From positions 248,001 through 312,000 of the forward strand of contig NZ_SDJP01000001.1 in the NCBI RefSeq assembly GCF_004114995.1: a stretch of 64,000 nt of DNA, in the 5' to 3' direction. This DNA is from Halorubrum amylolyticum. Lineage in GTDB: Archaea; Halobacteriota; Halobacteria; Halobacteriales; Haloferacaceae. The notes under the pieces are model-generated. The model saw only the letters and a program-made list of their open reading frames with translations. It had not been told where the DNA came from and searched no databases. Made by a program: the position numbers and the translations under genes. Below, in pieces: positions 44,587 through 47,559 of the stretch; the first letter of the stretch is position 1, and each line of letters starts with the position of its first letter.

Positions 44587-45489
44587 TTACTCCGTGAGTG
44601 TGAGCGAGCCGAGAGTCACGAACAGAGCCTCCTCCGTCCGGACGACCTCGCTCGCCTGTGCCGGGATCGTGTTCAGCCAGAGGTCGAACCCCGGATCGGG
44701 TTCGACCGAGCGGCCGTCGGCGACGGCCGCCCGAATGCCGGCGGGCGAAAGCCCGAGCATCTCCGGAAGCCCTCGCTCGGGCGCGCCGAAGGCGACGGTG
44801 TACCCGCCGGCCTCCCGCGCGTCCGAGACGATGGTGCCGAGCCGCGAGACGGAGAGTTCCTCCCCGTGTCGCGACGTCGCGACGGCCAAGCCGTCGCCGG
44901 CGAGCGCTTCCGACAGGTCCGCTTCCACGACCTGGAAACCGTCCTCCGGTTTCCCGGTGATGCGGGCGCGGACCGGTTCTCTCGAAGAGACCCTGATGGT
45001 GACGCGCTCCCCCTGCTCGACCTCCATTCCGGAGGGAACGAGCAGGGAGATCGGGTGTTCCCGCAGCGGGGAATTGACCCGGACGCGGCCTTCAGGTCCG
45101 ACCTCGGTCACGAGTCCCTGTGTTTTCGACTCTTCCCCGCTAGGGGTCGAGCCGGTCCGCCACGGCACGCGGAGCGGCGGGAGCACACCGGCGTACCGGA
45201 GTTCGTCGCGCTCCCCCCAGAGGTCCTTGCGGAGCCCCGGAGGGGTCGCGGCGTACCCCAGCACGGTCCGAACGTACTCGCCGTCCCGTCGCCGCTCGCC
45301 TTCCCTGTCGGGGAAGACGACCAGTCGATCCGCCCGGAACACCGCCGCCGCACGGGCGACGTAGCCGAGTTTGCGAGTCGCCTCGCGAGTGTCTTCGGCC
45401 TCCCGGACGACCGAAGACGGAATGCAGATCGTGAGTCCGTCTTCGGTACGCATCGTGGCGAGACTGTACTCCTCGATTTCGGACGACAT
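44587..45489 (-). CDS. Putative RNA uridine N3-methyltransferase (SPOUT superfamily), first gene of the ribosomal operon
   Basis: 300 aa from MSSEIEEYSLATMRTEDGLTICIPSSVV; codons further upstream run through the tRNA region and are not coding. Features of the SPOUT1/archaeal Methyltrn_RNA_3 family: LTICIPSSVVREAEDTREATRKLGYVARAAAVFRADRLVVFPD, YAATPPGLRKDLWGERDELRYAGVLPPLRVP, an S1/OB-like insert (GLVTEVGPEGRVRVNSPLREHPISLLVPSG) and the knot end VAFGAPERGLPEMLG...FDLWLNTIPAQASEVVRTEEALFVTLGSL. Catalyses methylation of an rRNA uridine, probably in 23S; exact site is not readable. It leads the S10-spc operon as in many archaea. Confidence 0.85.
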   Translation of the reverse strand: MSSEIEEYSLATMRTEDGLTICIPSSVVREAEDTREATRKLGYVARAAAVFRADRLVVFPDREGERRRDGEYVRTVLGYAATPPGLRKDLWGERDELRYAGVLPPLRVPWRTGSTPSGEESKTQGLVTEVGPEGRVRVNSPLREHPISLLVPSGMEVEQGERVTIRVSSREPVRARITGKPEDGFQVVEADLSEALAGDGLAVATSRHGEELSVSRLGTIVSDAREAGGYTVAFGAPERGLPEMLGLSPAGIRAAVADGRSVEPDPGFDLWLNTIPAQASEVVRTEEALFVTLGSLTLTE

Positions 45490-45710
45490 CGTAAAAGGGT
45501 AGCGGTCCCGCTTTCGGGCTGTGGCGCGTTCACACGGGGTCTGGCGGCGGTTTCGACCGGGCGATCGAGCGACCGAGTCACACGATCCGGAACGGGCCGA
45601 ATTGACCAAAGGCGGGAATCGACTCGGGCCGGACTGACCCACTCGGGAAACGCGGACCGGGACGGCCCGCGCGATCGAAGGGAACCGGGGTCGTCGACCG
45701 TCGTTCGGAA

Positions 45711-45720
45711 CCCTTATATC
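45711..45720 (+). promoter_or_regulatory. TATA box of tRNA-Gly
   Basis: CCTTATATCT lies 33-42 bp upstream of the first tRNA base, the normal archaeal tRNA promoter position. Confidence 0.6.
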
Positions 45721-45752
45721 TCCGACTCGGGCTATGTGGAGATGCGAAGCAC

Positions 45753-45823
45753 GCACCGGTAGTGTAGTGGTATCACGCAACCTTGCCATGGTTGCAACCC
45801 GAGTTCAAATCTCGGCCGGTGCA
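45753..45823 (+). tRNA. tRNA-Gly, anticodon GCC
   Basis: 71 nt cloverleaf. Acceptor stem GCACCGG (45753-45759) pairs with CCGGTGC (45816-45822), discriminator A at 45823. D-arm around GTAGTGGTA, anticodon stem CAACC/GGTTG with loop TTGCCAT, anticodon GCC reading GGC/GGT glycine codons. T-arm CCGAG/CTCGG with loop TTCAAAT (45798-45815). CCA is not encoded. No intron. A 14-bp copy of its 3' end occurs 54 bp downstream. Confidence 0.96.
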
Positions 45824-45876
45824 CTCCTTTCAGTCGTGCACCGCCCTGACTCCCCGCTCGCTGCGCTCGCGTGGAG

Positions 45877-45890
45877 TCTCGGCCGGTGCA
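45877..45890 (+). repeat. Duplicate of the tRNA-Gly 3' end (attachment-site-like)
   Basis: TCTCGGCCGGTGCA is identical to tRNA positions 45810-45823. Integrases that use the T-arm/3' end of tRNA genes leave exactly this kind of direct repeat. The AT-rich segment begins right after it. No integrase gene is present, so it would be the remains of an integration event. Confidence 0.6.
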
Positions 45891-46093
45891 TTTCTCGAAG
45901 CAGACTCTCTTGGTCAGCATTCGCTTTCTTCTGTTCAATTGGACCGTTTCGGCTTTGTTGAAATCCTCTTCTTCAGATGAATTCTCGTCTGAATCAGCTA
46001 GTCAGTGAAGACTGCGTATTGACCGACTCAAAACAACCACCTACCTGAACAAGTGAGACAAAGCATATATCTAACATTCATCGTGTCTCATAT
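45891..46093. other. AT-rich non-coding segment downstream of tRNA-Gly
   Basis: Visibly lower GC than the rest of the window. Holds a hairpin TTCAGATGA-ATTC-TCGTCTGAA (about 45974-45995, one G-T wobble) that could terminate the tRNA or belong to an integrated element, GTATTGACCG (46016-46025, repeated at 46620-46629), and a TATA-like CATATATC at about 46063-46070. Confidence 0.5.
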
Positions 46094-46100
46094 ATGAGAC
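46085..46100. promoter_or_regulatory. 16-bp perfect palindrome spanning the lipoprotein start codon
   Basis: GTCTCATATATGAGAC is a perfect palindrome; the start codon of the next gene (46094-46096) lies inside it. With a TATA-like element at about 46063-46070 it is placed to act as an operator or, in mRNA, as a hairpin covering the start. Confidence 0.55.
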
Positions 46101-46513
46101 GCCGAGGATTTCTCGCCAGTACCGGAATTGGACTTGCTACCGTCGGTGGTGGGTGCCTCGGTGATACTCCTCCCGACGCCTCGGCAACTGTTGAGATAGA
46201 ATCAGTGACGATCAACGACGATCCGGAGGACAAGGCAACAGTCAAGGTAAACGACGACCGCGCTACTGTGGAGGGTACCTTTGGAGCAGACCTAGACTGC
46301 GTCACGCTTGAGACTGCGGCGTTTGCCAGCAATGAGGGCGATGTGATCGTTGAACTCACCACAGAGGCGACTGGTGACGATTGTGACGGCCCGGCGACGG
46401 TGGCATACACCGGCGAAATCACCGCGAACTTCACTATTAACGATTTGCTGTTGATCCACGTCCATGAGGAGAACGATCGCACGACGGTATTCTCCTATGA
46501 GCGGGGAGATTAA
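46094..46513 (+). CDS. Tat-secreted lipoprotein, 139 aa (hypothetical)
   Basis: Signal peptide MRRRGFLASTGIGLATVGGGCLG has the twin-arginine motif (RRRGFL) and a lipobox ending in Cys21, so the protein should be exported folded via Tat and lipid-anchored outside the cell, the usual route in haloarchaea. The mature part is an acidic beta-rich domain of about 115 residues with two further cysteines (LDCVTLE, DDCDGPA) that could form a disulfide. No family recognised. Codon use is less GC-biased than neighbours and it lies in the AT-rich patch next to the duplicated tRNA end, so recent transfer is likely. Confidence 0.78.
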   Translation: MRRRGFLASTGIGLATVGGGCLGDTPPDASATVEIESVTINDDPEDKATVKVNDDRATVEGTFGADLDCVTLETAAFASNEGDVIVELTTEATGDDCDGPATVAYTGEITANFTINDLLLIHVHEENDRTTVFSYERGD

Positions 46514-46725
46514 TCGGGTCAGATCGAAATAAACAACTGAAAAACGGTTGGCCAAATCACGAGTTGCCTGTTCAGAACGTTCCGAGACTCCCCCGTACTG
46601 AATGATTTGTGAGTCCCCTGTATTGACCGCAGCAGTGTCAGGATGAACTCCTTGATAAGTCGTTCACCGGAGCCGCCCTTCCCCTACCGGTACTTTCAAT
46701 CGGCGATCCGCCGAACCCGTGTCGT
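46514..46725. other. End of the AT-rich patch and promoter of the aldo/keto reductase
   Basis: AT-rich to about 46660, then typical high GC. Contains the second GTATTGACCG (46620-46629). No ORF seen. ACTTTCAATCG at about 46691-46701 may serve as the TATA region of the next gene, 25-35 bp from its start. Confidence 0.4.
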
Positions 46726-47559
46726 GTGACCGTACCTACGAAGACGCTCCCGAGCGGCGCCGAGTTACCGGCGCTCGGGCTGGGCACGTACGACCTCGGA
46801 GACCGGACGACCGACAGCGTCCGCGCGGCGCTCGACGCCGGCTACGCGCACATCGACACCGCCGAGGGGTACCACAACGAGGCGGCGATCGGCGACGCGC
46901 TCGCGGAGTACGACCGCGACGACGTGTTCCTCACCTCGAAGGTGCTCGCGAAGAACCTCAACTACGAGTCGGTGATCGAGTCGTGCGAGGCGTCGCTCGA
47001 CCGGCTCGGAACCGACTACCTCGACCTGTATCTGGTCCACTGGCCGAACCCCGCGATCTCGCTGCGCGAGACCCTCCGGGCGATGGCCGAGCTGCGCGAG
47101 CGCGGGCTCGTCCGCGATGTCGGCGTCTCGAACTTCAGCGCCTACCAGCTGAGCTGCGCCCACCACGTCTCGGACGTGCCGATCGCGGTCAACCAGATCG
47201 AGTTCCACCCGTGGTTCCAGCGCCCCGACCTCGTCGACTACTGCCGCGAGTCCGACACCGTGATCGAGGCGGCGGCGCCCCTCGCGCGGACGGACGTGTT
47301 CGACGACGAGGTCGTCGCCGAGCTCGCCGAGAAGTACGACAAACACCCCGCGCAGGTCGTGCTCCGGTGGGCGCTCGACAACGACGTGGTCGCGCTCCCG
47401 CGGTCGTCGACCCCAGATCACGTCCGGGCAAACGCCGACCTCGACTGGGAGCTCGACGAGGCCGACCGGCGGCGGCTCGACGAACGCGACCGCGACCGGC
47501 CGGTGTACGACACTCCGGCGCGCGACTGGACGGACGACGTGTACGGGATCGAGCAGTGA
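46726..47559 (+). CDS. Aldo/keto reductase (AKR3/5-like)
   Basis: 277 aa with GTG start at 46726 (MTVPTKTLPSGAELPALGLGTYDLG). Tetrad Asp44, Tyr49 (HIDTAEGYHNE), Lys72 (TSKVLAKNL), His105 (YLVHWPNP). Later landmarks GVSNFSAYQL, AVNQIEFHPWFQRPDLVDYC, ALPRSSTPDHVRANA. NADPH-dependent reduction of small aldehydes or ketones, similar to 2,5-diketogluconate reductases; true substrate unknown. Unlike the 324-aa reductase at 17221, it is a compact form without C-terminal extension. Converges on the Gfo6-like gene. Confidence 0.93.
   Translation: MTVPTKTLPSGAELPALGLGTYDLGDRTTDSVRAALDAGYAHIDTAEGYHNEAAIGDALAEYDRDDVFLTSKVLAKNLNYESVIESCEASLDRLGTDYLDLYLVHWPNPAISLRETLRAMAELRERGLVRDVGVSNFSAYQLSCAHHVSDVPIAVNQIEFHPWFQRPDLVDYCRESDTVIEAAAPLARTDVFDDEVVAELAEKYDKHPAQVVLRWALDNDVVALPRSSTPDHVRANADLDWELDEADRRRLDERDRDRPVYDTPARDWTDDVYGIEQ

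Follow-up and report, generated by a model that had tools for sequence, protein, structure and literature searches.

A hairpin module carrying a copy of the tRNA-Gly 3′ end in Halorubrum amylolyticum and related modules behind haloarchaeal tRNA genes

The window, that is the whole 64,000-nucleotide stretch of DNA analysed here, corresponds to positions 248001-312000 of contig C1 (NZ_SDJP01000001.1) of the Halorubrum amylolyticum genome (G000). It carries a tRNA-Gly(GCC) gene followed by a short hairpin-forming sequence, an AT-rich segment with a predicted lipoprotein gene and an aldo/keto reductase gene. ARAGORN called tRNA-Gly(gcc) at 45753-45824, and the last base of the Rfam tRNA match (G000:C1:293753-293823) is the discriminator, 45823. 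The features of the locus are as follows:

45753..45823, + strand: tRNA-Gly(GCC) gene, ending at the discriminator A (ARAGORN, Rfam)
45810..45823, + strand: S1, first copy of the 14-nt tRNA 3′ end, TCTCGGCCGGTGCA, within the tRNA gene
45824..45890, + strand: 67-bp module of 'type A', pyrimidine-rich at its start; the imperfect hairpin that follows has the second tRNA-end copy as its 3′ strand
45837..45843, + strand: TGCACCG, the hairpin's 5′ arm, with complementarity to the tRNA 3′ end
45877..45890, + strand: S2, second copy of the tRNA 3′ end, at the right edge of the module
45900..46678, no strand: AT-rich insert
45951..46025, + strand: copy of a dispersed ~75-bp repeat (GGCTTTGTTGAAATCC...)
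46094..46513, + strand: predicted lipoprotein of 139 aa
46726..47559, + strand: aldo/keto reductase gene, conserved to the right of the locus and serving as an anchor

The preliminary description of this locus had taken a repeat of the tRNA-Gly 3′ end (45810-45823 / 45877-45890), together with the AT-rich DNA that follows, for the trace of a decayed element inserted at the tRNA. The repeat is indeed present at both places, and TCTCGGCCGGTGCA has no other site in the window when both strands are searched. Such a repeat alone is not rare, since 180 14-mers are repeated within 1 kb across the window. A second repeat brought forward in the same context, GTATTGACCG, does lie at 46016 and 46620, but this pair is without weight as evidence because 1555 pairs of 10-mers recur within 1 kb in the window.

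We observed that the duplicated tRNA end bounds a 67-bp hairpin module (45824-45890), not the AT-rich DNA. Its type, A, is one of three labels (A, B, C) set in this analysis by starting letters. The stem is formed by TGCACCG (45837-45843) and CGGTGCA (45884-45890), is continued by GACTCC/GGAGTC and encloses a GC-rich inner loop. In this short form, the copied tail comprises only the last 14 nt of the tRNA. The predicted minimum free energy of the module is −31.7, compared with −21.1 ± 2.8 for 300 dinucleotide shuffles, hence 3.7 standard deviations lower. This stability favours a functional RNA trailer, in which the module would be transcribed with the tRNA and would act as a processing or termination signal, as an imitation of the tail that RNase Z, the CCA enzyme or another tail-binding protein recognises, or, by way of its 5′ arm, as a switch between the two tails. 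We regard this explanation as possible, if rather doubtful. Against it, no Rfam family covered the modules at the nine loci tested. These loci had no match to RtT RNA at E ≤ 1 either, provided that the library includes that family.

The AT-rich DNA next to the module is unusual for the window. The fall in GC up to about 46660 and the deviant codon use of the lipoprotein gene, both noted at the outset, were borne out: the GC content of 45891-46660 is 0.505 versus 0.685 for the window, and none of the 6324 sliding windows of the same size is lower; the segment's tetranucleotide distance lies in the top 0.3%, and GC3 is 0.59 for the lipoprotein gene versus 0.95 for the gene that follows. In alignments with six relatives, similarity breaks off at 45899 (L041), and all six loci regain it at 46679-46680. 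The product of 46094..46513, which we take from its N-terminal signal to be a Tat-type lipoprotein, had no Pfam match at E ≤ 1. Relatives of it are found somewhere in 10 of 58 other genomes, the best three being 45-46% identical and from the same genus, and no counterpart of the gene was present in 40 other loci scanned, the 30 syntenic ones included. As the insert has no counterpart in the six aligned relatives and its gene is absent from the other loci, we consider it strain-level foreign DNA. It looks like a separate foreign insertion beside the module, one that would disrupt or replace the DNA after it. A viral origin of the lipoprotein was rejected, no relative being found in viral contigs, and so was an insertion sequence with terminal inverted repeats, as comparing short words end to end gave only 6-7-bp matches, direct or inverted.

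The ~75-bp repeat inside this insert has 12 further places in the genome and copies of ~80% identity in 36 haloarchaeal plasmid records, most of the listed matches lying without annotated gene; it has the look of an element end or of a small mobile repeat.

A decayed tRNA-integrated element that carries the AT-rich lipoprotein DNA would explain both the repeat and the fall in GC, and haloarchaeal integrases can use very short acceptor-end cores, of 13 bp in SNJ2 (PMC8371274). We nevertheless find it highly unlikely. The repeat closes after 67 bp and no third tail copy lies in 45891-46760, where the best match has 5 mismatches in 14, so that the AT-rich far end is without one; the genome has 8 matches to the integrase family PF00589, none of them on contig C1; and modules of relatives at the same tRNA carry no such cargo. 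What stands of the initial proposal is therefore a duplicated tRNA end beside foreign-looking DNA, not the AT-rich DNA as its cargo. Compared with tRNA-integrated mobile elements of the tyrosine integrase type in general, the 67-bp module has the tRNA 3′ end as a direct repeat on either side and modules of the same kind have a precise empty site in relatives (see below), but there is neither an integrase in or beside the element nor an AT-rich cargo enclosed by repeats.

We then surveyed three genomes for copies of the own 3′-end 14-mer of each tRNA (up to 2 mismatches) within 250 nt of the gene. Own-tail copies were found behind 14 of 46 tRNAs in H. amylolyticum, 13 of 46 in G020 from the same genus and 19 of 42 in G071 from another family. 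With the ends of other tRNAs as control, only 6/1912, 6/1892 and 3/1496 cases were obtained, i.e. 0.2-0.3%. In H. amylolyticum, 10 of 56 tRNA matches, from a dense cluster on contig C56, were excluded and two others of that cluster were kept. The own-tail counts are slightly low, because a filter against whole tRNA copies dropped 2, 3 and 1 cases, among which Leu CAA (two genomes) and Lys TTT (G020) are real modules. Thus it is the anchoring at tRNA ends, rather than the repeat itself, that exceeds chance. A chance repeat in GC-rich, hairpin-rich DNA, for which the 180 repeated 14-mers of the window could be invoked, is contradicted by these own-tail versus other-tail counts and by the tRNA anchoring of 30 of 30 loci described below, and its probability is negligible.

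In these genomes, one or several modules stand behind many tRNA genes; the 3′ strand of each predicted hairpin is a copy of the adjacent tRNA's end, the copied stretch usually running from the T-loop to the discriminator. The three other matching tRNA-Gly loci of H. amylolyticum also have hairpins, the ends of which are fitted to the respective tRNA; at its second Gly(GCC) gene the terminal tail copy is decayed. That second gene (L069 / L404, on the 7.2-kb contig C54) is located ~2.5 kb from the genome's best PF00589 match. The dense cluster on contig C56 (L121) holds 12 tRNA matches within 3 kb and is possibly viral.

In the long type, the order is tRNA, first hairpin, inverted T-loop sequence, inner hairpin, and then T-loop to discriminator of the same tRNA. 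The borders of the copy were analysed in 51 units from two pattern searches. The first position shared by tRNA and copy in 51/51 is G53, which closes the T-loop; one base earlier the two agree in 37/51, and further up agreement is near background. Because the search pattern fixes nine bases of the copy from G53 on, the sharp left edge rests on the drop of identity before G53. Identity continues through the acceptor strand to the discriminator (44-51 of 51), decreasing to 31/51 just after it and then to ~20/51. On the right, the 11 nt after TTCAAATC are free of the constraint set by the pattern; they had no mismatch in 36 units, one in 10 and three or more in 5, while the tails of other tRNAs never matched the same 11 nt with fewer than 2 mismatches.

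Complementarity of the inverted arm is largely confined to the T-loop plus one or two further bases. The acceptor part of the long-type copy thus remains identical to the tRNA while mostly unpaired with the 5′ arm, so that hairpin pairing alone does not account for the match; this points to identity with the tRNA gene, kept through recent origin or through recombination, more than to pairing. The mostly unpaired acceptor strand also speaks against an RNA trailer, as does the distribution of modules: the majority of tRNA genes have none (32/46, 33/46 and 23/42 in the three-genome survey), nor do 9 of 31 orthologous Gly(GCC) loci have a detected one, and modules are therefore not needed for tRNA maturation. 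In favour of a trailer are the first hairpin directly 3′ of many tRNAs, an inner motif, AGTCGC...CGTCT, common to several families, and changes on both sides that keep the hairpin in 7 of 18 short-type pairs and 4 of 18 pairs of one long type, figures obtained without shuffle control.

The same arrangement could arise in replication, by a hairpin-induced template switch that copies the tail inverted and then direct, with quasipalindrome correction keeping arms and tails alike. The order S1, inverted T-loop, inner hairpin, S2 fits such a by-product, as do the imperfect palindromes and the nested hairpin insertions within modules, and it would account for tRNA-specific tails combined with similar inner parts. 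Neither a border placed exactly at the T-loop nor the recurrence of inner families in different genera follows from it, however, and the reversed complement of the tail is weak beyond the T-loop; we judge it rather unlikely. As an explanation for the modules in general, tandem duplication of tail and trailer was rejected: the sequences following the two tails are not copies of each other. The exception is L074, the second Gly(GCC) gene of one genome, where tandem units of identical type form a true tandem.

Gain and loss of modules were followed at the same tRNA-Gly(GCC) in relatives. With the RNA methyltransferase gene as anchor, 30 syntenic loci of the same genus were collected, 31 with the window, and a tail copy was scored at up to 2 mismatches in 14 within 900 nt. 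No module was detected at 9 loci, one at 8, two at 10 and three at 4, hence at least one at 22/31; in these counts the third interval of L057, of 625 bp, is doubtful, and among the 9 loci without a detected module L060 contains a stretch of N together with a degenerate copy, and module-like remnants persist in L039 and others. Module sizes are 65-67, 73 and 109-129 bp, plus longer versions, some with a nested hairpin.

The empty sites that the preliminary description had proposed to look for in relatives thus exist, and some of them pair exactly with filled ones. When the 122-bp module of L046 is taken out, the next 50 bases equal the flank of the empty locus L052 at 50/50 positions. The same skip gave 46/50 for L045 and 40/50 for L059, compared with 13-17/50 when the module was not skipped; these pairs concern modules of the same kind in relatives, not the window's own module. 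Orthologous tRNAs differ in having a module, lacking it, having another one in its place or carrying several in a stack, and the junctions fall precisely at the tRNA end. Comparison of filled and empty loci likewise shows exact units gained or lost between tRNA-end copies, the direction (gain versus slippage loss between repeats) not being proven.

On the other side of the tRNA, the interval from the RNA methyltransferase gene (45493-45752) measures ~260 bp in the window, and most relatives have 1.4-3 kb more there; among the matches listed, only G020 aligned to the whole query across it. The corresponding DNA of L052 contains a 420-aa ORF, presumably resembling a sugar dehydrogenase lipoprotein. 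Inside the predicted RNA methyltransferase gene, on the minus strand (44993-45095), there is a match of 74.5 bits to RF03135, the L4-Archaeoglobi leader, which was found in H. amylolyticum and in L053.

The inner parts are similar behind different tRNAs of one genome: among 50 nearest-neighbour rows, which include one contig-end artefact (G000 Gly 6956), the neighbour lay behind another tRNA of the same genome in 22, another tRNA of another genome in 22 and the same tRNA of another genome in 6. Such sharing is hard to reconcile with simple site-specific insertion, because the tail of another tRNA would break the gene. We also searched six genomes with a covariance model of one type's inner hairpin and obtained 30 matches, one of which (G139 393351) is a member of the alignment. 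Twenty-four are behind a tRNA; of the remaining 6, L428 has a Gly tail but no tRNA was detected there, and five lie in other settings, four of these in H. amylolyticum. The inner hairpin is therefore not exclusive to tRNAs. The four places in H. amylolyticum (L411, L416, L422 and L427) belong to a dispersed repeat with GGGACTCAAAGGGGCAG or a near form of it, which has the same inner hairpin and no tRNA. As to L428 (G101:C1:3347935), this module is complete, ends in a tail of tRNA-Gly(TCC) type and lies ~3 kb from a near-identical copy that does sit behind a tRNA.

The distribution of the modules was examined with the pattern GATTTGAA-N35-65-GTTCAAATC, which detects only the longer type with this T-loop. 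It occurred in 114 of the 146 genomes of the order, the reversed-pattern control giving 0 among the matches listed. Outside the order it was met in 4 of 163 genomes of the phylum; one of the four was fetched (L287) and has no tRNA there. ARAGORN found no tRNA at three pattern places in all (L287, L296 and L302). When one locus per genome was taken from 30 genomes, a tRNA on the same strand preceded all 30 at a distance of 37-196 nt, and the tails of these loci were exact in 20 cases, had one mismatch in 9 and were poor in one (L159). In viral contigs the long-type pattern appeared at at least 81 places, and 0 of 81 were behind a tRNA; in phage records no modules were found. Six plasmid records matched, and the four that were read showed only a nested CGCCGGCG...GGACC hairpin without tRNA. 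Carriage of the module by viruses or plasmids was accordingly rejected. No description of such modules was found in the open-access literature searched, most subscription journals lying outside it.

We thus propose, with a confidence that is about evenly balanced, that the module of the window is the local member of a haloarchaeal class of 'tRNA-tail hairpin modules' that are mobile by recombination at tRNA 3′ ends. Modules would arrive and leave as units through recombination between tRNA-end copies, the T-loop or the acceptor serving as attachment core. The tRNA would be left intact by the insertion, since an identical tail comes in with the module or stays behind. The agent would most likely be a tyrosine recombinase supplied in trans, or else homologous exchange, and the modules are probably non-autonomous or selfish short elements. 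Against such recombination, the modules could not be connected with a recombinase, a circular intermediate or an integrating element, and they were absent from phage records. The core of SNJ2 is reportedly 14 bp in the paper on its integrase. According to PMC8371274, archaeal tyrosine recombinases prefer tRNA 3′ ends, the SNJ2 core is 13 bp at the acceptor end and three integrase families are restricted to Halobacteria, for which reasons a tyrosine recombinase with a T-loop or acceptor core would fit the known archaeal attachment sites.

A more specific, integron-like version, in which integration would use folded hairpin attachment sites, with the tRNA gene as attI, the terminal hairpin of the cassette (T-loop and tail) as attC and recombinase-driven arrays of non-coding cassettes, is distinctly unlikely. 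The modules form hairpins with variable inner parts, which may or may not correspond to attC sites. The integron core is GTTRRRY. Integron arrays and their attC sites (PMC9668308 on archaeal integrons) resemble the modules in having units at a fixed anchor and a terminal imperfect hairpin with a recombination-like border, but the modules have no ORF, are anchored at a tRNA gene, are linked to no IntI so far and possess a different core.

Recombination at tRNA 3′ ends, as we propose it for the modules, also invites comparison with other systems. In the E. coli tyrT operon, rtT repeats of ~178 bp lie behind the tRNA gene, each unit reproducing its 3′ end, and they belong to one bacterial group. 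Modules share with them the place behind tRNA and the copy of its 3′ end in each unit, and differ by being located behind many tRNAs, across a whole archaeal order, with hairpin units of several lengths. Dispersed palindromic repeats of REP or MITE kind are likewise short repeated hairpins, and the inner motif does recur in a non-tRNA repeat of the H. amylolyticum genome, but the tails of modules are specific to the adjacent tRNA and their position is fixed. Elements of SSV, pNOB8 and SNJ2 type (PMC8371274) have direct repeats of the tRNA 3′ end, an intact tRNA and empty sites, as the modules do; unlike these elements, modules are non-coding, hairpin-forming, 65-190 bp long, often in tandem and without integrase, and they occur behind a third or more of a genome's tRNA genes. 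The nearest known systems, tRNA-gene integrated elements and rtT, share single features only.

If the proposal is correct, a large share of the tRNA genes in an archaeal order would precede mobile or semi-mobile DNA built from their own tail, and this would account for some of the fast change seen next to tRNA genes. The many additional attachment-like sites might draw in integrating viruses or deflect them, and the system would allow small modules to be tracked from strain to strain as they are gained and lost. For annotation, a repeated tRNA end in haloarchaea should be taken as weak evidence for an integrated virus or island.

Finally, some modules behind tRNA-Gly (L047, L072, L076 and others) contain a nested hairpin of the form CGCCGGCG...GCGCCGGC...GGACC...GGTCC. 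The same hairpin is found on haloarchaeal plasmids away from tRNAs (L398-L401), as if it were itself mobile.
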